Shown here: one piece after another, positions 22,059-38,206 of the stretch
Position numbering within the stretch: position 1 is the first letter of the stretch
Layout: each line of letters begins with the position of its first letter
Assembly: GCA_002928955.1 (NCBI GenBank)
Contig: PERT01000013.1
Coordinates: 1-64,000, forward strand
Direction: 5' to 3'
Length of the DNA: 64,000 bases
DNA from: Hyphomicrobium sp.
GTDB lineage: Bacteria > Pseudomonadota > Alphaproteobacteria > Rhizobiales > Hyphomicrobiaceae
The notes under the pieces: model-generated
Database searches by the model: none
What the model saw: the letters and a program-made list of their open reading frames with translations, nothing else
What the model was told of the DNA's origin: nothing
Made by a program: the position numbers and the translations under genes

Positions 22059-25000
22059 TCACTCTCCGCCGAAGCGCCGAGACCACCAGCCTTTGCGTAC
22101 CGGTTGTTCGGCTGCACCCACGTCGGCTTCGGTTGCCCCCGTGTCCGGACGCACGACTACGCGCTCGATCTTCGGCTCGCTCGCTGTGGCCAGGGACCTT
22201 TGCCGATGACGGGGTATTTCCGTCTCGGAATTCGGCTCCGATTTCAGCTCTGGCGTCGTCATCGGGTCGGGCGATGGTGCTGAGGGCGATCGAGCTCCAG
22301 CGTCCGGCTCGGACACTCCCGTGAACTGCGCGTCGCGGGGCGTCGCCGCTGCTTCCAGATTTTCTACGCCGCTCACCGGTCGCTCGTCGCTGTGTCCCCG
22401 GAAGCGGCCTCGAACCCGTCCGCCGCCTGACGCGTCGTCACGCCCAGAATTGCTTTCAAGGTTCGTGTCAGGGCGGAGGTCTGCGTTGCGGCCCTGCGCT
22501 CGATCGTTGTGGCCGTTTTGGTCGGTTCGGCTTGGCTTGTTGCCGTCCATTTTTGCAAATGACCCACTGTGATCGTCATCCGGGTCGCGCCCGTCCAACA
22601 TCGGGACCTCGTCCTCCGTGGCCGCGAACGGCTGCACGTCAAATCCTGGCACGCCGTTTCCATTGCCGTCTCCGCGCTCACGGTTGCGGCGTCCACCACG
22701 GCGCCCGCGCCTGCGCCCGCGACGGCGCTGATCGCCGTCCGCACCGCTGCGCGTTTCGCCGTTGCCGTCGTCTCCCGCACCATCGGGGTTGTCGTCGCCT
22801 GCGCCGGCATTGATCTCGGTTACGCCGTCGTCGTCAGCCGGATCATCGGGAGTGAAGGTGATGCGATCGCCGCCCGGGTCCGAGCCGTGGCGTTCGTCGT
22901 CGCCGTCGGCCGCGTTACCGCTGACGCCAATGGCGCCCGACGCGATGCGTTCACCATCGGCACGATCGCCGCGCCGGCCACCACGGCGTCTGCGGCGACG
23001 CTTGCGGCGGCTCCCATCGTCGGCGCCCGAAGCGTCGCGATCCCTTTCACCATCGGCGTCTCCGCCACGGCCGCTTGGCAGGCTCTCTCGTGGCTCCCGG
23101 CGGAACGTCCTTTGGTCGGTGCGCGGGGCTTCGGGACCCTCGTCGTGATCATGTTCCTCGACATCGGAGACCCGATCGCCGTCGTTGTCGGCGTCCTGGT
23201 CCTCGCCGTCGAAGCCCCAGTCCATGTTGACGGCATTCCGGTCGACGCGCCGCAATGGCGTTGCGACGATGGCGGACGCACCTTTCTCGATCGTATAATT
23301 CGCGCCCTGCAACTTGTCGGATCCTTGCACGGTGACGGGCAATCCAAGCCGCGCCTCCATGTCGATGATGAAGGCGCGCTTGTTGTTGAGGATGTAGAGC
23401 GCCACCGTCGGTGTCGTCGTGGCGATCAGCGGCGTGCGGGCGCCCGCGGTGACGGCATCTTCGAGACCACGCAATACTGCCAGCGCCACGCTTTCAACGG
23501 AGCGGATGATGCCGGTGCCCTGGCAATGCGGGCACTGCGTGGTCGAGCCTTCCAGAACGCCGGTTCGCAGACGCTGCCGTGACATTTCCATGAGGCCGAA
23601 GTGGCTGATGCGCCCTAGTTGGATCCGCGCGCGGTCGAACCGGAGCGCATCCTTCAAGCGGCGCTCGACCGCCCGGTTGTTGCGCTTCTCGTCCATGTCG
23701 ATGAAGTCGACGACGATCAAGCCTGCGAGGTCGCGCAGCTTCACCTGGCGCGCAATCTCGTCCGACGCTTCGAGGTTGGTGTTGAGCGCGGTCTCTTCGA
23801 TCGAAAATTCTCGGGTCGATTTGCCCGAGTTGACGTCGACCGCGACCAGAGCTTCGGTCTGGTTGATGACCAGATAGCCGCCCGAGCGCAAGGTGACGTA
23901 GGGGCTGAACATTGCGTTCAATTGCCGTTCGATGCCGAAGCGCGTGAACAAAGGTTCTGGTGCCTGGTATTCAACGACGTTCTTGGCGTGGCTTGGCATC
24001 AACATGCGCATGAAGTCGCGCGCATCGCGATGAGCCTCGGAGCCGGCCACAATGATCTCGTCGACGTCCTTGCCGTAGAGGTCGCGAATCGAGCGCTTGA
24101 TGAGGTTGCCTTCCTCGTAGACGAGGCTCGGCGCTTCACTCTGCAGCGTCATGTCGCGGACGCTTTCCCACAACCGAAGCAGATACTCGAAGTCGCGCTT
24201 GATCTCTTGCTGCGTGCGGGCTGCACCCGCCGTGCGAATGATGAGCCCCATGCCTTCCGGCACCTCGAGGTCCTGGGCTATGGCCTTCAGGCGCTTGCGA
24301 TCCTGCGGGCTGGAGATTTTGCGGCTTATTCCGCCGCCACGGGCGGTGTTCGGCATCAAAACGGTATAGCGGCCGGCCAGCGACAAATAGGTCGTGAGTG
24401 CGGCGCCCTTAGTGCCACGCTCTTCCTTGACGACTTGGACAAGGATCACCTGCCGACGCTTGATCACTTCCTGGATCTTGTAGCTACGCGTGCGGCGGCG
24501 GGTGCGCGGCCGACTGGAGAATTCCTCGAGCGCGTCCTCCGAACCGACTTGATCGACATCGGCAGATGCGGCTCCACCAGCCACTTCCCGGATGCTGTCC
24601 GTGTCATCGCCGTTGCGATCGCCATCGATGGCGTCGTCACGGTGCATTGGCTGGCTTGCTGCCGATGGACCGCCATGGCCACCAGGGTGTTCACCGTCGT
24701 TGCCGCGGCTATGGTGGCTTTCGTCCGGCTCCCGATCGTTTGCGTCCGGCGCGGGCTCGAACCCGCCAACAGTCTCCGGCGGAGGCATTTCCTGGATCGG
24801 GTCATCGATCAGGCCCGTCTGATCGGCAAATGTAGCCGAAGCCGCATCGTCGTCCTCATGGCCAGAGCGCGGCTCCGCCTCTTCGTGATGATCAGCGCCG
24901 TCGGTATCGTAATCACTTTGCGGTCCGGCATCGATGTCGTTGTCAGAGTCCCCAGTGGCCCGCTGTGCCGATGCTTGACCCGTTGGGTGGCTCGGCCGTA

Positions 25001-25355
25001 CCTGACGCCGGCGCCGGGCAACCGCTTCCGCCCGCGCATCGGCCTCGGCCTCTTCCTCGGCTTCGGCGCGTGCTTCCTCGTCGATGAGCGCCTGCCGGTC
25101 GGCCATCGGGATCTGGTAATAATCGGGATGGATTTCGTTGAAAGCCAGAAAGCCGTGCCGATTGCCGCCATAGTCGATGAACGCCGCTTGCAGCGACGGT
25201 TCGACCCGCGTGACTTTGGCAAGATAGATATTGCCGCGCAGCAATTTCCGGGCAGCGCTCTCGTAATCGAACTCCTCTACCCGGCCTCCACGCAGAACCA
25301 CGACCCGGGTCTCTTCCGGATGAGTGGCATCAATAAGCATTTTGTTGTGTGACAT
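22059..25355 (-). CDS. rne: Ribonuclease E
   Basis: 1098 residues. The N-terminal S1 domain (GNIYLAKVTRVEPSLQAAF) is interrupted after about residue 90 by an acidic, low-complexity insert of roughly 190 residues, then resumes at KIQEVIKRRQ. The catalytic DNase I-like part has VAVDVNSGKST and LIVVDFIDMDE, carrying the metal-binding aspartates, and the Zn-link C608-P-H-C611. The C-terminal half is disordered, with Arg-rich RNA-binding blocks alternating with acidic stretches, and ends KGWWSRRFGGE. It is the scaffold of the RNA degradosome. The acidic insert in S1 is known from alphaproteobacterial RNase E. It is divergent from the amidase gene across a long leader. Confidence 0.96.
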   Translation of the reverse strand: MSHNKMLIDATHPEETRVVVLRGGRVEEFDYESAARKLLRGNIYLAKVTRVEPSLQAAFIDYGGNRHGFLAFNEIHPDYYQIPMADRQALIDEEARAEAEEEAEADARAEAVARRRRQVRPSHPTGQASAQRATGDSDNDIDAGPQSDYDTDGADHHEEAEPRSGHEDDDAASATFADQTGLIDDPIQEMPPPETVGGFEPAPDANDREPDESHHSRGNDGEHPGGHGGPSAASQPMHRDDAIDGDRNGDDTDSIREVAGGAASADVDQVGSEDALEEFSSRPRTRRRTRSYKIQEVIKRRQVILVQVVKEERGTKGAALTTYLSLAGRYTVLMPNTARGGGISRKISSPQDRKRLKAIAQDLEVPEGMGLIIRTAGAARTQQEIKRDFEYLLRLWESVRDMTLQSEAPSLVYEEGNLIKRSIRDLYGKDVDEIIVAGSEAHRDARDFMRMLMPSHAKNVVEYQAPEPLFTRFGIERQLNAMFSPYVTLRSGGYLVINQTEALVAVDVNSGKSTREFSIEETALNTNLEASDEIARQVKLRDLAGLIVVDFIDMDEKRNNRAVERRLKDALRFDRARIQLGRISHFGLMEMSRQRLRTGVLEGSTTQCPHCQGTGIIRSVESVALAVLRGLEDAVTAGARTPLIATTTPTVALYILNNKRAFIIDMEARLGLPVTVQGSDKLQGANYTIEKGASAIVATPLRRVDRNAVNMDWGFDGEDQDADNDGDRVSDVEEHDHDEGPEAPRTDQRTFRREPRESLPSGRGGDADGERDRDASGADDGSRRKRRRRRRGGRRGDRADGERIASGAIGVSGNAADGDDERHGSDPGGDRITFTPDDPADDDGVTEINAGAGDDNPDGAGDDGNGETRSGADGDQRRRGRRRGRRGGRRNRERGDGNGNGVPGFDVQPFAATEDEVPMLDGRDPDDDHSGSFAKMDGNKPSRTDQNGHNDRAQGRNADLRPDTNLESNSGRDDASGGGRVRGRFRGHSDERPVSGVENLEAAATPRDAQFTGVSEPDAGARSPSAPSPDPMTTPELKSEPNSETEIPRHRQRSLATASEPKIERVVVRPDTGATEADVGAAEQPVRKGWWSRRFGGE

Positions 25356-32129: not shown

Positions 32130-33689
32130 ATGGCTATGAGTACACTCAATCTTTTGTCGGGCCTCATGACGCCCGACTTCCTGAGGACCGTGGCACAGTC
32201 CACCGGCGAAAGTGACAGCGGTGTTGCCAAGGCGCTCGGGGCGGCTTTTCCCGCCATACTCGGCCAACTCGCCCAAGGTGCGGGAAATTCGACGCTGATG
32301 GGAAAAGTGGCCGAGATGGCCCGCGATCCCGCCATTGAAGCGTTGATGGGCCCCGGCGGGGGCATATTGGCCAGCGTTGGATCAATGCTCTCGCCAAGCT
32401 CGGCAAGCAGCCCCATCGGTGCCATCGGAACGTCGATGCTGGCGGGTCTGTTTGGTAGCAATATCGGCGGACTGGCGAGTGCGCTCAGCTCACTTGCGGG
32501 CCTTAAGAATGCTGGTTCGGCTTCCTCGCTGCTCGGATTGGCCGCGCCGATGGTGCTAGCTGCGGTCGGCAACAGGCTCGGCGGCTCGCTGACGGGCACA
32601 GCACTTTCGGTGCTGCTCGGTCAGGAAAAGAACGGCATCATGAGTGCGCTGCCGAGTGCACTTTCGGGAGCAATGGGACTTCTGGGAGGCGCAGCCTCCA
32701 CGATGGGAGCTCCGGGCATGGCTCCGGCAGCCGCCACGGTCGCGGCCGCAGCGGGTGCCGTGGCCAGTCAGGCAACGAGCCAAGTGACGGCGGCTGCTTC
32801 GGCCGCGGCCGACGCGGTAAAGTCGGTGGCCGCCGCAAGTCAGGCGCCGATCGCCGCCGCACCGCAGGTAAAGCCCGCGGCCGTTGCGCCTGCCCCCGCG
32901 GCGGTTGTGCACTCGGACGAACCTTCAGGCGGCTCGGCCATCGGTGGCAGCGTGCTTGGCCTGCTTCTGACCTGCGCCATTCTGGCTGGCGTCGTGTTTG
33001 GCGTGAACCAGTGCGCCAAGGCCACGGCACCGGTCGCGCCACCGGCCGTCAAGAAAGCGGAAACTCCGCCCGTCCCGGTTGCCAAGGCACCCGAGGCTCC
33101 AAAGCCTGTTGATAAGCCCGTGGTGGTCGCGGCTCCAGCTCCTGCTCCTGCTCCTGCTCCAGCACCGGCGCCCGCACCGGCACCGGTCAGCAAGTCGGCT
33201 AAGCTGCTCGCATCCCTGAAGCCGGGGGACGGCGGCCTGTTCAATTTGGCACTGCCAACGGGCAAGACCGTCGCGATTGCTGAAAAGGGAGTTGAGACCG
33301 AGCTGATAGGTTTTCTTGAGGACCAGTCGCAGCCAATCGACAAGGGAACGTGGTTCAACTTCGACCGGTTGACCTTCAAGACCGCCTCGACGGATCTCAC
33401 CCCAGAGTCGAAGGCGCAGATCGACGCTATTGCCGAGATTCTGAAAGCGTTCTCGACCGCGCACATCAAGATCGGCGGCTATACCGACAACCAGGGCGAT
33501 CCGGCGATGAACCTGAAGCTGTCGGACGATCGGGCCAAGCGCGTAATGTCCGAGATTGTCGGACTCGGCATCGCGCCGGATCGGCTGTCGGCAGAGGGCT
33601 ACGGCGATCAGCACGCCATTGGCGACAACGGGACGCCGGAAGGCCGCGCCAAAAACCGCCGCACGGCACTCAGCGTTCGTCAGCGTTGA
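32130..33689 (+). CDS. DUF937-OmpA fusion protein with one membrane helix
   Basis: 519 residues from ATG 32130; the frame is open to 32040, but that part lacks domain similarity. Residues 1 to about 190 are Gly/Ala/Ser/Leu-rich with the YidB/DUF937 pattern (SGVAKALGAAFPAILGQLAQGA). A membrane helix at about 273-295 is followed by a Pro-Ala repeat linker (about 330-352) and a C-terminal OmpA/MotB domain from about 405 (FDRLTF…, GGYTDNQGD, LSDDRAKRV) that binds peptidoglycan. So a cytoplasmic DUF937 part would be tied through the inner membrane to the cell wall. Function is unknown. About 280 bp with no gene precede it. Confidence 0.8.
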   Translation: MAMSTLNLLSGLMTPDFLRTVAQSTGESDSGVAKALGAAFPAILGQLAQGAGNSTLMGKVAEMARDPAIEALMGPGGGILASVGSMLSPSSASSPIGAIGTSMLAGLFGSNIGGLASALSSLAGLKNAGSASSLLGLAAPMVLAAVGNRLGGSLTGTALSVLLGQEKNGIMSALPSALSGAMGLLGGAASTMGAPGMAPAAATVAAAAGAVASQATSQVTAAASAAADAVKSVAAASQAPIAAAPQVKPAAVAPAPAAVVHSDEPSGGSAIGGSVLGLLLTCAILAGVVFGVNQCAKATAPVAPPAVKKAETPPVPVAKAPEAPKPVDKPVVVAAPAPAPAPAPAPAPAPAPVSKSAKLLASLKPGDGGLFNLALPTGKTVAIAEKGVETELIGFLEDQSQPIDKGTWFNFDRLTFKTASTDLTPESKAQIDAIAEILKAFSTAHIKIGGYTDNQGDPAMNLKLSDDRAKRVMSEIVGLGIAPDRLSAEGYGDQHAIGDNGTPEGRAKNRRTALSVRQR

Positions 33690-33901: not shown

Positions 33902-34840
33902 ATGTCACAAACTTCGCGACAGCTCACGTTAATTACCTCCTCCGGCTTCGGGAGCTATGCGCTTCTCGACTCGGGCGGCGGGCGCAAACTTGAGCGGTTC
34001 GGGTCGATCGTCGTCGACCGGCCGGAGGTGCAGGCCATCTGGCGCCGGCAGCAGCCAGATGTCGAATGGGCGAAAGCGCACGCGGTATTCTCCGCCTCGG
34101 TCGAGGACGATGAAAAGGGTAGGTGGCGCGTTGACAAGCCGGTACCCGACAGCTGGCCGGTGGTGATCGGGACGAGACGTGGCGGGACGACTGGAGGTGC
34201 AAATGCGCCGGACGTAACCATGTTGTGCAGATTGCAGGGGCTTTGGCACCTCGGGCTTTTCCCGGAACAGCTGCCGCACTGGCGGTGGATGCTGGAGCGC
34301 TTGGATGAAGTCAAGGGCGAGCGCCCGCGCGTGTTGAACCTGTTCGCGTACACCGGCGCGGCCACGCTGATCGCGGCGGCTGCAGGTGCCGAGGTGACAC
34401 ACGTCGACGCCTCCAAGAAGGCGATTGCCTGGGCGAAGGAGAACCAGGCAGCCTCCAAGTTGGCAGACAAGCCGGTGCGCTGGATCTTGGATGACGCGAC
34501 AAAGTTCGTGGCCCGCGAGGCACGCCGGGGCAAGACTTATGATGTGATCCTGGTTGATCCGCCGAAATTCGGGCGTGGACCCGAGGGCGAAGTCTGGGAT
34601 CTGTTCACTGGCCTGCCGCATTTGCTGCGTGACTGCACCGCGCTGCTCGCGCCGGATCGCGCGGCGATGATCTTGACTGTTTATGCCATTCGCGCGTCGG
34701 CGCTGGCATTCGATCAAGTGATGCGGCAGCACCTTGTGAACCGCGGCGGGCGATATGATACTGGAGAGCTGGCGATCGAGCCGGTTGGCGGCAGGTTTGC
34801 GGTTCCGACGTCGTTGTTCACGCGCTGGGTGTCGGCATGA
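33902..34840 (+). CDS. Class I SAM-dependent RNA methyltransferase (RlmI-like)
   Basis: 312 residues from ATG 33902; an in-frame upstream extension to 33734 has no family features. VLNLFAYTGAATL is the SAM-binding motif I, VDASKKAIAWAKEN motif II, and VDPPKFGRGP motif IV. The pattern fits the RlmI/RlmK-like m5C rRNA methyltransferase superfamily, but the N-terminal PUA domain of RlmI is absent. The target base is unknown. The stop overlaps the next gene (ATGA, 34837-34840), another RNA methyltransferase. Confidence 0.82.
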   Translation: MSQTSRQLTLITSSGFGSYALLDSGGGRKLERFGSIVVDRPEVQAIWRRQQPDVEWAKAHAVFSASVEDDEKGRWRVDKPVPDSWPVVIGTRRGGTTGGANAPDVTMLCRLQGLWHLGLFPEQLPHWRWMLERLDEVKGERPRVLNLFAYTGAATLIAAAAGAEVTHVDASKKAIAWAKENQAASKLADKPVRWILDDATKFVAREARRGKTYDVILVDPPKFGRGPEGEVWDLFTGLPHLLRDCTALLAPDRAAMILTVYAIRASALAFDQVMRQHLVNRGGRYDTGELAIEPVGGRFAVPTSLFTRWVSA

Positions 34841-35697
34841 CAGGGCGCGGGCCGGGCAAAAGACCAGAGCGAGGCGAGAGTGCCGGCGCGGGCCCCCGCC
34901 TCATCACCAGCCTCACCAACGACCGGATCAAGGCGGTCCGCGCACTTGAGATGCGCAAGGAGCGCAAGGAGACCGGATTGTTCGTGGCGGAGGGTGCGTC
35001 GATACTGGTGACGGCCCGGGACGCTGGTTTTGTGCCCGAAAGACTCGTTCTTCTTGCCGGGTCGGCCGACAGCAGCATTCCGCGAGGGCTCGTCGCATGG
35101 GCGCTCGAAGCGGGTTCTGACGTGCTCGAGGTCTCCGACGCGGTCCTTGCCAAGCTGTCGGCCAAGGACAACCCGCAGACCATGCTGGGCGTCTTCCAGC
35201 AGCGCTGGGTGTCGTTGCCTGATGTGGGATCGCTCGCGTCGTCGTCGTGCTGGGTGGTCCTTGAAGAGGTGCGCGACCCAGGCAATCTCGGTACCATCGC
35301 GCGAACCGTCGACGCGGTCGGGGCCGATGGCATCATCCTGGTTGGCAACTGCTGCGATCCCTATTCGCGGGAGTGCGTGCGCGCCACTATGGGATCGATC
35401 TTCACCGTTCCGATCACGCGAGCAACGAGACCTGCGTTTCTCGAGTGGCGCGCCCGTTGGCCGGGCACAGTGATCGGCACGCACTTGACAGCGACCGGGG
35501 ACTTCCGATCCGTGACGCCTGAAGAGCCCATTCTGCTGATCATGGGCAGCGAAGGGCCGGGCCTCTCGGACGAAATGGCCGAGGCATGCTCCTTGCTCGT
35601 CAAGATACCGATGGCCGGTTCGCTCGACAGCCTCAATCTCGCGATTGCGACTGCGCTGGCACTTTACCAGCTCCGAAGCCCACACCTGAGGCTTTGA
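34837..35697 (+). CDS. TrmH/SpoU family RNA 2'-O-methyltransferase
   Basis: 286 residues. A substrate-binding N-terminal domain (LITSLTNDRIKAVRAL) leads to the SPOUT knot: motif 1 DPGNLGTIARTVDA, motif 2 IMGSEGPGLSDE and motif 3 IPMAGSLDSLNLAIA. It methylates ribose 2'-OH in rRNA or tRNA; the exact site cannot be read. It is translationally coupled to the preceding methyltransferase and 3 bp from the following PRMT-like gene. Confidence 0.9.
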   Translation: MTGRGPGKRPERGESAGAGPRLITSLTNDRIKAVRALEMRKERKETGLFVAEGASILVTARDAGFVPERLVLLAGSADSSIPRGLVAWALEAGSDVLEVSDAVLAKLSAKDNPQTMLGVFQQRWVSLPDVGSLASSSCWVVLEEVRDPGNLGTIARTVDAVGADGIILVGNCCDPYSRECVRATMGSIFTVPITRATRPAFLEWRARWPGTVIGTHLTATGDFRSVTPEEPILLIMGSEGPGLSDEMAEACSLLVKIPMAGSLDSLNLAIATALALYQLRSPHLRL

Positions 35698-35700
35698 CCG

Positions 35701-36651
35701 ATGCGCATCGAGTATCATCGCACGCTGATCGCCGATCTGGTCCGCAATGCCGCCTTTCACGCGGCCTTGAAGGCGGCGATTGTTCCAGGGGTCACGACGG
35801 TGGCCGATATCGGCGCCGGCACCGGGCTGCTCGGATTGATGGCGGCAAGACTCGGCGCAAAAGATGTCTTTCTCTACGAAACGGCGGAGGTCGCAGGCGT
35901 TGCGGCCCAGATCCTCCACCGGAACCGCGCCAGGAACTGCCACGTCTTCCCATGCCACTCGACCGAGATGGACGACCCGCCACGCGTCGACGTCGTGGTA
36001 TCGGAAACGCTCGGCAATTACGCGCTTGAGGAAAACATCCTCGAAACGGCCAAGGATGCGGTCGCCCGTCATCTCAAACCAGGCGGTGCCCTGATCCCAC
36101 GGCAGGTCATCCAGCGGGTGTGCCCGGTGGTCACCTCGCGAATCCAGGAAGAGTTTTGCGCTTGGGACCGGGTGGGGCTCGATCTGGGACTCGACATGGA
36201 TCTGTCTCCCGCGAAGGCCATGAGCATGAACAATATCTACGTGCGCTCGTTCCAACCCGTCGATTTCCTCGATCAGATGATGGCCGCCAAGGCCTGGGAT
36301 ACCATTGATCTGTTGCGCGACCACCGCGCAACTCGCAAAGCCGAACTCAAGTGGGCTATCGGCGACCACCAGACGATCCACGGTTTTGCGATCTGGTGGG
36401 ATGTCGAACTTGCCACCGGCATCACGCTTTCGACGGCACCTGATGCGCCGCGCACGCACTGGGAGCAACTCTACCTGCCGCTGCTCCACCCCTTCACGTG
36501 CCGTGCGACGGAAACCCTCGCCCTCTCCATCAGGTCGAAATCATCGAGCGAAGCTGGCACGCACCTCGCGTGGACCGCCAGCAGGATGGATGCCCGCGGC
36601 AAGAGCCTGGAACGACAATCGCTGGACTTGGACAAGGGCTTTTTGCCCTAA
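35701..36651 (+). CDS. Protein arginine methyltransferase (PRMT) homologue
   Basis: 316 residues. SAM motif I is VADIGAGTGLLGLMA (34-48). SETLGNYALEEN (101-112) matches the PRMT double-E loop: E102 and E111 are nine residues apart, as are the paired active-site glutamates in eukaryotic PRMTs. T252-H253-W254 in RTHWEQLYLPL is the THW loop. The N-terminus YHRTLIADLVRNAAF also follows the PRMT pattern, though shorter. PRMTs transfer methyl groups to arginine and are rare in bacteria; the substrate is unknown. It lies 3 bp after two RNA methyltransferase genes, so a ribosomal or RNA-binding protein substrate is plausible (inference). A generic 'class I SAM methyltransferase' label would undersell it. 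Confidence 0.78.
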   Translation: MRIEYHRTLIADLVRNAAFHAALKAAIVPGVTTVADIGAGTGLLGLMAARLGAKDVFLYETAEVAGVAAQILHRNRARNCHVFPCHSTEMDDPPRVDVVVSETLGNYALEENILETAKDAVARHLKPGGALIPRQVIQRVCPVVTSRIQEEFCAWDRVGLDLGLDMDLSPAKAMSMNNIYVRSFQPVDFLDQMMAAKAWDTIDLLRDHRATRKAELKWAIGDHQTIHGFAIWWDVELATGITLSTAPDAPRTHWEQLYLPLLHPFTCRATETLALSIRSKSSSEAGTHLAWTASRMDARGKSLERQSLDLDKGFLP

Positions 36652-36678: not shown

Positions 36679-37371
36679 TCAGAATTCGCGGCGCCGGCCA
36701 ACGTTGTAGGGATAGCGATCCCAATGGCCCTCATCGGTTTCACCTTTGCTCGCACGCCGCTCCCAAGGCGGCGCGTTGTCGTGCGGATAACTCCGCTGAG
36801 CATGGGGACTGTAACGGCGATCGTATCGTTCCTCGTCACGATACCGAGCGCCATACGACCCTCGCGGCTCCAAGCGAAAAGCATAGCGATACCGGTTGTT
36901 GTCGAAACGACTACGGCCAGCGTAACCGGGGCGTGAAGCCGGTCTCACGTAGATCCATCGACCGCCGAAGGCATCACGAGGCGCGCGGTATGTCCTTACA
37001 GCGGTGAGCGGCCAATCCCTGCTCACGGCCCGGCCACGGCGAAAGCCTGGGCTCACTTCGGCGGCATAGCGACCTTGGCGATCAATGTCCCGGAATTGCG
37101 GAGTGGGAGTAACGGCAGGCGGGCGCGCACTTTCAGCTTGGTCATCCTTATAGTCGCGGGCAACCGCCGGCCTTTGATCCCGTGGCATGGCCTGGACCGG
37201 AAGGACTGCTGCCACCGGCATGGACTGGGCCGCAAGCGCCTTTGCTTCGGCGCTGGGCTTCGGCGCGGTTACAGAATTCATCAGCGCCGGCGCCGCGTTG
37301 TCCGCCATCGTTGGCAGTATCGCGGCTGCCCACGCCATCACGCCTAGCGACACACATTTCAAACGCCACAT
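36679..37371 (-). CDS. Secreted Arg/Tyr-rich hypothetical protein
   Basis: 230 residues from ATG 37371, chosen because GGAGG lies six bases upstream. A signal peptide (cleavage near TMADN) is followed by an Ala/Pro-rich part and a strongly basic C-terminal half rich in Arg, Tyr and Pro (RYRDEERYDRRYSPHAQRSY). I do not recognise a family. The charge suggests binding to an anionic partner such as nucleic acid or polysaccharide, or disorder. It is convergent with the PRMT-like gene, 27 bp apart. Confidence 0.65.
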   Translation of the reverse strand: MWRLKCVSLGVMAWAAAILPTMADNAAPALMNSVTAPKPSAEAKALAAQSMPVAAVLPVQAMPRDQRPAVARDYKDDQAESARPPAVTPTPQFRDIDRQGRYAAEVSPGFRRGRAVSRDWPLTAVRTYRAPRDAFGGRWIYVRPASRPGYAGRSRFDNNRYRYAFRLEPRGSYGARYRDEERYDRRYSPHAQRSYPHDNAPPWERRASKGETDEGHWDRYPYNVGRRREF

Positions 37372-37483
37372 CGCAACCTCCAATATCGAACTGCATCAGC
37401 ACCTCGACAATATATTCACTTTTTGTTCCTGTCATGTTCTATTTGGTGAGAGATGGAACCTCCGGCATCAATAATGCCTGTGA

Positions 37484-38206
37484 TCACCGGCTGAGGAGCA
37501 GCCAGGCCGATACCCACAACGATACGTAGGCGGTGGTCACCAGCGCGTAGGGGCCGTAGATATCGATCCGCATGTTCCACATGCCCCGGCGCACGGCCGC
37601 GATGTCGCCGCTCTTGGCCAGCGCGCGTTCAAGATCGACGGGATCGTGGTTGGTCGGGCAACGCCCCTCGATCTCGTGATAGCGGCGGCGGTACTCCTGC
37701 AACTCGGGCACCGTTACCGGACGTGCGATCTCCAACTCGCGTGCGAGGTTGCCAAGATCCATGGCGCAGCGTTGCAGGTAAAGTGCCCGGGTCTGGTAGT
37801 TGGCGAGGCCGACAACGAGGCCGAAGCCGAACAGGAACACGCCTGTGACAATCGAAGCGAAGTCAAGAAATGACCGGATGTCGGCGGGCAGCTTGTTTTC
37901 GTAGATGATCGTGAATAACGAGATCGCGATCTCGGCGACGGTCGCCAGTGTGAAGGCGGCAACACTCGCGTTGTGCTTGGCTTCGAGGCGCTCGTGAGCG
38001 TTGAATCGGGCGCGCTTCACAAGCAGCATTGTCTTGAGGAACTTCGCTGCAATCTCTGGCTTGCCTTCGGTATCGGACACATGGCGTTGTCCGGCTATCG
38101 CCGCCTCCAGCGAGGCAACGAGCCGCGGCTGGGAGGAGCTGATGTCTGCAGATTGCCGCATGGGCCGAGAAATAGCCTGATTCGCCGCAGCCGGACGCAG
38201 AACCAC
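37484..38206 (-). CDS. SLATT-type membrane protein (SMODS/SLOG-associating 2TM effector-like)
   Basis: 240 residues from GTG 38206 (ATG 38161 possible). RARFNAHERLEAKHN leads into two adjacent membrane helices (about 86-105 and 117-138), then ANYQTRALYLQRCAMDLGNL and a helical stretch ending in EGRCPTNHDPVDLERA. This order and the NHxPVD-like motif resemble SLATT family 5 proteins, predicted pore-forming effectors in bacterial conflict systems. A third hydrophobic segment closes the protein (about 216-238), which is unusual. No nucleotidyltransferase, reverse transcriptase or SLOG gene is adjacent, so a defence role is unproven. Confidence 0.6.
   Translation of the reverse strand: MVLRPAAANQAISRPMRQSADISSSQPRLVASLEAAIAGQRHVSDTEGKPEIAAKFLKTMLLVKRARFNAHERLEAKHNASVAAFTLATVAEIAISLFTIIYENKLPADIRSFLDFASIVTGVFLFGFGLVVGLANYQTRALYLQRCAMDLGNLARELEIARPVTVPELQEYRRRYHEIEGRCPTNHDPVDLERALAKSGDIAAVRRGMWNMRIDIYGPYALVTTAYVSLWVSAWLLLSR

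Follow-up and report, generated by a model that had tools for sequence, protein, structure and literature searches.

Arginine methylation by protein arginine methyltransferases (PRMTs) is mostly regarded as belonging to eukaryotes. The eukaryotic type I PRMTs (PRMT1/Hmt1, PRMT6, PRMT8 and CARM1) consist of a Rossmann domain, an arm and a beta-barrel, and they carry a double-E loop, in which two glutamates lie nine residues apart, and the pattern STxPxxPxTHWxQ. In these enzymes, a helix known as alpha-X closes over the cofactor. PRMT5, a type II enzyme, carries a large N-terminal domain. Here, we discuss a PRMT homologue encoded in a 64,000-nucleotide stretch of DNA from Hyphomicrobium sp. (assembly GCA_002928955.1, contig PERT01000013.1, positions 1 to 64,000), referred to below as the window. 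The homologue shares the three domains, the double-E spacing and the STxPxxPxTHWxQ pattern with the type I enzymes, and differs from them in being bacterial, in being restricted to one family, the Hyphomicrobiaceae, and in having no alpha-X helix. We put the probability at roughly 80% that this 316-amino-acid protein is a compact bacterial PRMT-fold arginine N-methyltransferase, which lies on the type I side of the PRMT tree and is confined to the Hyphomicrobiaceae. As a bacterial PRMT lineage it is real and well supported; its catalysis, product and substrate are predicted.

Bacterial arginine methylation itself has already been reported. According to an excerpt of one paper, Rv1988 was then the sole nucleomodulin known to have PRMT activity, and Legionella pneumophila has two predicted PRMTs (PMC10117894). 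These proteins, like the one predicted here, are bacterial arginine methyltransferases, named as such in print; in that excerpt they are host-directed or only predicted, and we set them apart by description alone. Of two further papers, one points in excerpts to an E. coli protein that carries methyl-arginine and to mycobacterial proteins methylated on lysine or arginine (PMC8466066); the other, with CheR named in its title, states that an arginine of PhoP can be methylated (PMC8546571). We found no study of a Hyphomicrobium PRMT in the open-licence literature, a scope that leaves out most subscription papers and all bioRxiv preprints, and no description there of a family-wide PRMT-fold enzyme such as this one.

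By Pfam, AlphaFold2, Foldseek and VIA-align, the protein belongs to the PRMT fold family, with a Rossmann domain for S-adenosylmethionine (SAM) followed by an arm and a PRMT beta-barrel. The gene and the parts of its product are listed below; the division into parts is our own and follows the secondary structure of the model.

35701..36651, plus strand: PRMT homologue, 316 amino acids; Pfam PRMT_C 1.6e-11 and PRMT5_C 1.3e-8, both above cut-off.
Residues 5-26 of the PRMT homologue, plus strand: helices alpha-Y.
Residues 33-143, plus strand: SAM-binding Rossmann domain.
Residues 147-193, plus strand: dimerisation-arm region.
Residues 197-309, plus strand: beta-barrel.

Relatives were gathered from 70 related loci, labelled Hyphomicrobium, Filomicrobium, Hyphomicrobiaceae or other alphaproteobacterial bins, often loosely named. 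Hyphomicrobium facile and Hyphomicrobium zavarzinii are among the carriers of the gene. Conservation was counted in 68 full-length sequences, i.e., the window protein and 67 relatives, with the partial sequences L068, L069 and L070 dropped. Those less than 80% identical to each other, the window protein included, make up a 44-sequence alignment, and all 44 members match PRMT_C at E ≤ 1e-3. When the window protein was searched against the PDB with phmmer, PRMT6 came first (1e-26), followed by CARM1 and PRMT8. With a profile of the 44 sequences, the top matches among those listed (60 of 72) were PRMT6 (3.9e-41), PRMT8 (1.7e-39) and PRMT1 (4e-37); PRMT7 and PRMT9 scored lower, near 1e-30, and PRMT5 was absent from the matches listed, an absence that does not count as a test. 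The AlphaFold2 model, built from the same alignment, has a mean predicted local distance difference test score (pLDDT) of 92.6 and a predicted template modelling score (pTM) of 0.89. Foldseek matches it to PRMT6 (E 6.6e-26, TM 0.82), and VIA-align superimposes it on PRMT1 with a Z of 31.7 and a root-mean-square deviation of 2.6 over 301 aligned residues between residues 2 and 311, beta-barrel included. Identity to the eukaryotic type I structures is 20–28%. The preliminary description, made from the sequence, had proposed a PRMT homologue and a comparison of its predicted structure with PRMT1; since the model has both barrel and arm, the proposal does not fail for want of a barrel after the SAM domain.

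The Rossmann domain has other matches. Residues 31-152 score above the cut-off of Pfam PrmA, a family matched by 44 of 44 alignment members at E ≤ 1e-3, as would be expected if a methyltransferase like PrmA (which acts on ribosomal protein L11) had been mistaken for a PRMT. That match covers the Rossmann domain only; the NCBIfam PrmA models give 13.4–21.1 bits against cut-offs of 183–327, PRMT_C accounts for the C-terminal half, and the alignment with PRMT structures runs from end to end. We therefore regard a PrmA identity as scarcely credible. PADLOC reports a mad2 match (7.6e-11) for residues 26-131; we do not accept a link to defence from it, as it covers the methyltransferase domain only.

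The motifs expected of a PRMT are present and strongly conserved. In the 68 sequences, 59 positions are invariant, including R15, motif I, E102-N106, E110, E111 and T252-L257.

35743..35745, plus strand: codon of R15, in the alpha-Y motif H-x5-D-x2-R; invariant in 68/68 and aligned with HEEMLKDEVR of PRMT1.
35806..35826, plus strand: motif I, D36-I-G-A-G-T-G42, for SAM binding; D36, G38, G40 and G42 invariant in 68/68.
36001..36036, plus strand: double-E loop SETLGNYALEEN, residues 101-112; E102, T103, L104, G105, N106, E110 and E111 invariant in 68/68.
36454..36468, plus strand: THW loop, T252-H-W-E-Q256; invariant in 68/68 and aligned with THWKQ/THWYQ of type I enzymes.

The H-x5-D-x2-R motif of alpha-Y, E60 (kept in 99% of the 68 sequences), E102, E111 and THWEQ all pair with type I counterparts in the alignment. 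The positions given earlier for the paired glutamates, E102 and E111, and for THW at 252-254 proved exact. Because both loops align with the double-E and THW loops of PRMT1, PRMT6, CARM1 and Hmt1 and are invariant in all 68 sequences, the motifs are not due to chance. Neither loop lay in the peptide seeds used to find relatives. By contrast, the first eight residues, MRIEYHRT, were a search seed, and their invariance is partly ascertained. The gene is under purifying selection: the ratio of nonsynonymous to synonymous substitution rates (dN/dS) is 0.008–0.135 in six close pairs, one of them saturated at synonymous sites.

Several features weigh against a simple type I assignment. First, there is no alpha-X helix (YFxxY) before the position of HEEM; since an in-frame stop closes the frame one codon upstream of the start, the helix cannot be encoded in the window. 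The open frame upstream of the gene is at most 10 codons long in 36 of the 70 loci (counted by hand); in the other 34 it is longer, and no alpha-X search was made there. Second, L9 aligns with the methionine of the type I HEEM. Third, the double-E loop reads SETLGNY and not SEWMGY or SEPMGY as in type I enzymes, with N106 in place of the type I tyrosine of SEWMGY. This loop is closer to SELLGSF of PRMT5 than to SEWMGY, the pattern shared with PRMT5 being SE-x-L-G-[NS]-[YF]-A, and the window protein also matches Pfam PRMT5_C; PRMT5, however, has FSW at the site of THW. Because of L9, SETLGNY and the missing alpha-X, we describe the protein as a PRMT-fold enzyme that resembles type I, without assigning it to the type I PRMTs. 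Because the double-E loop is PRMT5-like, and the full tree described below does not settle the order among the Hyphomicrobiaceae, type I and PRMT5 branches, several product types are possible.

The gene is found in nearly all members of the Hyphomicrobiaceae. Matches occur in 93 of 103 family genomes; one of these (G096) is a marginal match to the SAM domain only and was not counted, leaving 92/103, some of which hold the gene as fragments at contig ends. Among high-quality family genomes, 71 of 76 have it. The source genome has one copy. Three family genomes (G094, G055 and G095) encode a second, longer PRMT-like protein, in frames of 479–491 amino acids, besides the compact one. In searches of the family, class and order, full-length family members score 455–545 bits, and nothing outside the family exceeds 144 bits. 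The order search gave matches at 1e-10 in 17 of 249 genomes, of which the ten from the family exceed 490 bits and the seven from outside it score 82–144 bits. In the class search, at least 34 of 289 genomes besides the source have PRMT-like matches below 1e-17, with one more (G306) at 2e-14 and none above 137 bits; at most seven candidates per genome were scored, so these counts are lower bounds. Among 397 Pseudomonadota genomes, 10 have a PRMT_C match, and two of these belong to the Hyphomicrobiaceae; 14 control genomes gave none. It had been claimed that bacterial PRMTs are rarely described. The PRMT_C frequency and the little to be found in the open-licence literature agree with this, but other bacteria do carry PRMT-like proteins, including ones with TPR repeats. 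Searches of plasmid and phage records gave no match at the limits used, and we reject a recent mobile or phage origin. The family-wide presence, the weak matches outside the family and the lack of plasmid or phage matches together indicate that the gene is a stable, family-specific orthologue.

Two unrooted trees relate the protein to other PRMTs. The first has 57 rows: 15 of the 68 family sequences, 34 bacterial and eight eukaryotic. Left out were duplicates (L116, L119 and L134), partial sequences (L132 and L099) and four rows removed by a motif filter (L104, L105, L107 and L113). In this tree, eukaryotic PRMT7 and PRMT9 group with most of the bacterial rows (28 of 34) at 99/96. The Hyphomicrobiaceae lie across that branch, and so do not group with PRMT7/PRMT9; they form a clade (100/99) on the same side as the type I PRMTs, PRMT5 and six divergent bacterial proteins. 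Against a type I placement, the tree does not fix the branching order within this assemblage. The second tree omits ten long or divergent rows and L102 but keeps L097. With the long branches removed, the Hyphomicrobiaceae clade, the type I PRMTs and one bacterial row separate from the other bacterial rows at 100/99; by this tree and by profile score, the type I PRMTs are the closest relatives. In both trees, the five type I rows sampled make up a separate clade (100/98 and 99/95), and the Hyphomicrobiaceae clade stands beside it, not within it, on a stem of 0.94 and 1.38 changes per site, respectively. An approximately unbiased (AU) test on unrooted trees with few eukaryotic rows rejects the eight eukaryotic PRMT rows as one clade (p 0.004). 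We give this result little weight, because the clade was chosen for testing with the tree already in view, and because PRMT5, PRMT7 and PRMT9 sit on long branches.

These trees bear on whether the gene was acquired recently, by horizontal transfer from a eukaryote, as a type I PRMT gene that may lack a native function. Such an origin would account for the best PDB matches being eukaryotic type I PRMTs, at 20–28% identity, but it sits poorly with a deep, long-stemmed clade outside the type I clade, and with a gene that is family-wide, under purifying selection and without a plasmid or phage match. We consider recent transfer quite improbable. An ancient transfer, in either direction, is still compatible with trees that include only eight eukaryotic rows.

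The bacterial proteins akin to eukaryotic PRMT7/PRMT9 (L085:715-2352, L082:865-2349 and others among L083-L135) are of a different build. Those from other Alphaproteobacteria share the PRMT core, the double-E loop and often the HW loop with the Hyphomicrobiaceae PRMT, but many occupy frames of ~490–660 amino acids as against the compact 316. The two scanned with Pfam, one of them L085, have N-terminal TPR repeats ahead of PRMT_C, as in PRMT9; the scan found no TPR match in the window protein. In the PDB, L085 matches PRMT7 (4.9e-51), human PRMT9 (4.6e-41) and, with a match that begins in the TPR part, the MGC151858 protein of 8rbk (2.3e-44), a chain that we take for a PRMT9.

In the window, the PRMT gene is the third of three tightly packed methyltransferase genes on the plus strand, as seen in the list of open reading frames (ORFs) and their translations.

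33902..34840, plus strand: RlmI/RlmKL-like class I SAM methyltransferase, 312 amino acids; Pfam Methyltrans_SAM 2.2e-8 and Cons_hypoth95 6.8e-9.
34837..35697, plus strand: SpoU (TrmH-superfamily) RNA methyltransferase with an MRM3-like substrate-binding domain, 286 amino acids; Pfam SpoU_methylase 3.9e-35 and MRM3-like_sub_bind 1.3e-19.

The ORF that encloses the first gene begins at GTG 33734; ATG 33902 is its likely start. The packing described previously is borne out: the ATG of the SpoU gene overlaps the TGA of the RlmI-like gene by 4 bp, and the PRMT gene follows after 3 bp (TGA-CCG-ATG). The labels given to the first two genes do not hold as specific names. The best NCBIfam match of the RlmI-like gene is RlmKL (1.9e-19), below that model's cut-off; it reaches 43.1 bits against 712 for RlmI, and the SpoU gene reaches 112.1 against 160.15 for RlmB and 53.4 against 227 for TrmH. 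"RlmI-like" and "TrmH-like" are thus broad labels. The SpoU and PRMT genes share a frame in the window. Upstream in-frame stops and the spacing differ among loci, however, so we take the shared frame as chance and reject a read-through fusion. Judging from the spacing, the PRMT gene is probably co-transcribed with the two RNA methyltransferase genes in this genome. A 591-amino-acid open frame antisense to the SpoU and PRMT genes (34714-36489, minus strand) is most likely a shadow of the high-GC coding sequence.

The arrangement had led the preliminary description to propose ribosomal substrates, i.e., an enzyme that modifies the ribosome together with two RNA methyltransferases. Among the 70 loci, counted by eye, 41 have the order SpoU-PRMT and 38 the order RlmI-SpoU-PRMT, with prfB further upstream in many. 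Of the 90 genomes that hold both genes, 50, spread over 9 of 19 genera, have SpoU immediately upstream. Among the remaining 40 the two are apart, and 10 of the 19 genera have no adjacent case. One of the 40, G101, is counted as non-adjacent yet is a contig break: in locus L010, whose contig has the same length (13819), SpoU ends 35 bp upstream of the PRMT gene, at a contig end. Elsewhere the PRMT gene adjoins lgt, an RNase D-like gene, gmk/yicC or others, named by eye from translations, and no ribosomal protein is among the 14 window proteins scanned. SpoU adjacency is thus a genus-level trait, and we reject operon logic as a general key to function. Ribosomal substrates are possible, but the neighbourhood does not carry the idea, and we think the joint ribosomal role unlikely.

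A second proposed substrate, the RNase E tail, fares no better.

22059-25355, minus strand: RNase E, whose long tail is acidic, rich in arginine and contains blocks such as RRRRRRGGRRGD; RG content not above composition.

The tail has 10 RG against a shuffled mean of 8.7, and 3 RGG against 1.15, a count at least equalled in 534 of 5000 shuffles. Neither is significantly enriched, and we reject the tail, which had been called RGG-rich, as an RGG substrate.

Other neighbours are noted for completeness. Upstream, 32130-33689 (plus strand) encodes a protein that combines a DUF937 domain with an OmpA C-terminal domain. Downstream, a convergent frame at 36682-37383 has no Pfam match at 1e-3, and 37484-38206 (minus strand) encodes a SLATT_5 two-transmembrane protein (Pfam 1.7e-29; PADLOC RTasSLATT 6e-28). 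SLATT proteins are familiar from defence systems; the neighbours scanned around this gene include no reverse transcriptase.

The varied neighbourhood also bears on the nature of the substrate. Instead of cellular proteins, a PRMT-fold enzyme might methylate a guanidinium group on a small molecule or on a peptide that is a natural product (free arginine, agmatine or a ribosomally synthesized and post-translationally modified peptide). The window protein is compact and has no extra substrate-recruiting domain, unlike the TPR-bearing PRMT-like proteins of other Alphaproteobacteria; and because its neighbours differ between genera, no protein partner is evident. Yet it has a full arm and barrel that superimpose from end to end on protein-modifying PRMTs, it is near-universal in the family, and no biosynthetic gene is among the 14 window proteins scanned. 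Near-universal retention and the lack of a biosynthetic gene suggest a housekeeping role, and we regard a small-molecule substrate as very improbable.

If the protein is a PRMT-fold arginine methyltransferase, as we favour, it would bind SAM in the Rossmann domain, hold the substrate arginine with E102, E111 and H253/W254, and pass a methyl group to a guanidinium nitrogen of arginines in bacterial proteins, which need not be ribosomal. It may work as a dimer through the arm, like eukaryotic PRMTs. Given a THW loop and a tree position that both resemble type I, the likely product is mono- or asymmetric dimethylarginine; this is the least certain step.

More tentatively, PRMTs may be no eukaryotic invention. 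There may be at least two old bacterial lineages, one of PRMT7/PRMT9 kin, some with TPR repeats, and one of compact type I kin without alpha-X; the latter would carry out housekeeping arginine methylation in the Hyphomicrobiaceae, and the eukaryotic types would derive from more than one such lineage. We think this joint reading less probable than its negation. The Hyphomicrobiaceae lineage bears on the origin of the eukaryotic PRMT types. The protein is also a minimal PRMT without an alpha-X lid, useful for mechanistic work and engineering. Because nearly the whole family keeps the gene, marking of arginines may be a normal part of life in the Hyphomicrobiaceae; and with a PRMT in nearly all members of a bacterial family that has cultured, non-pathogenic strains, bacterial protein arginine methylation becomes directly testable.

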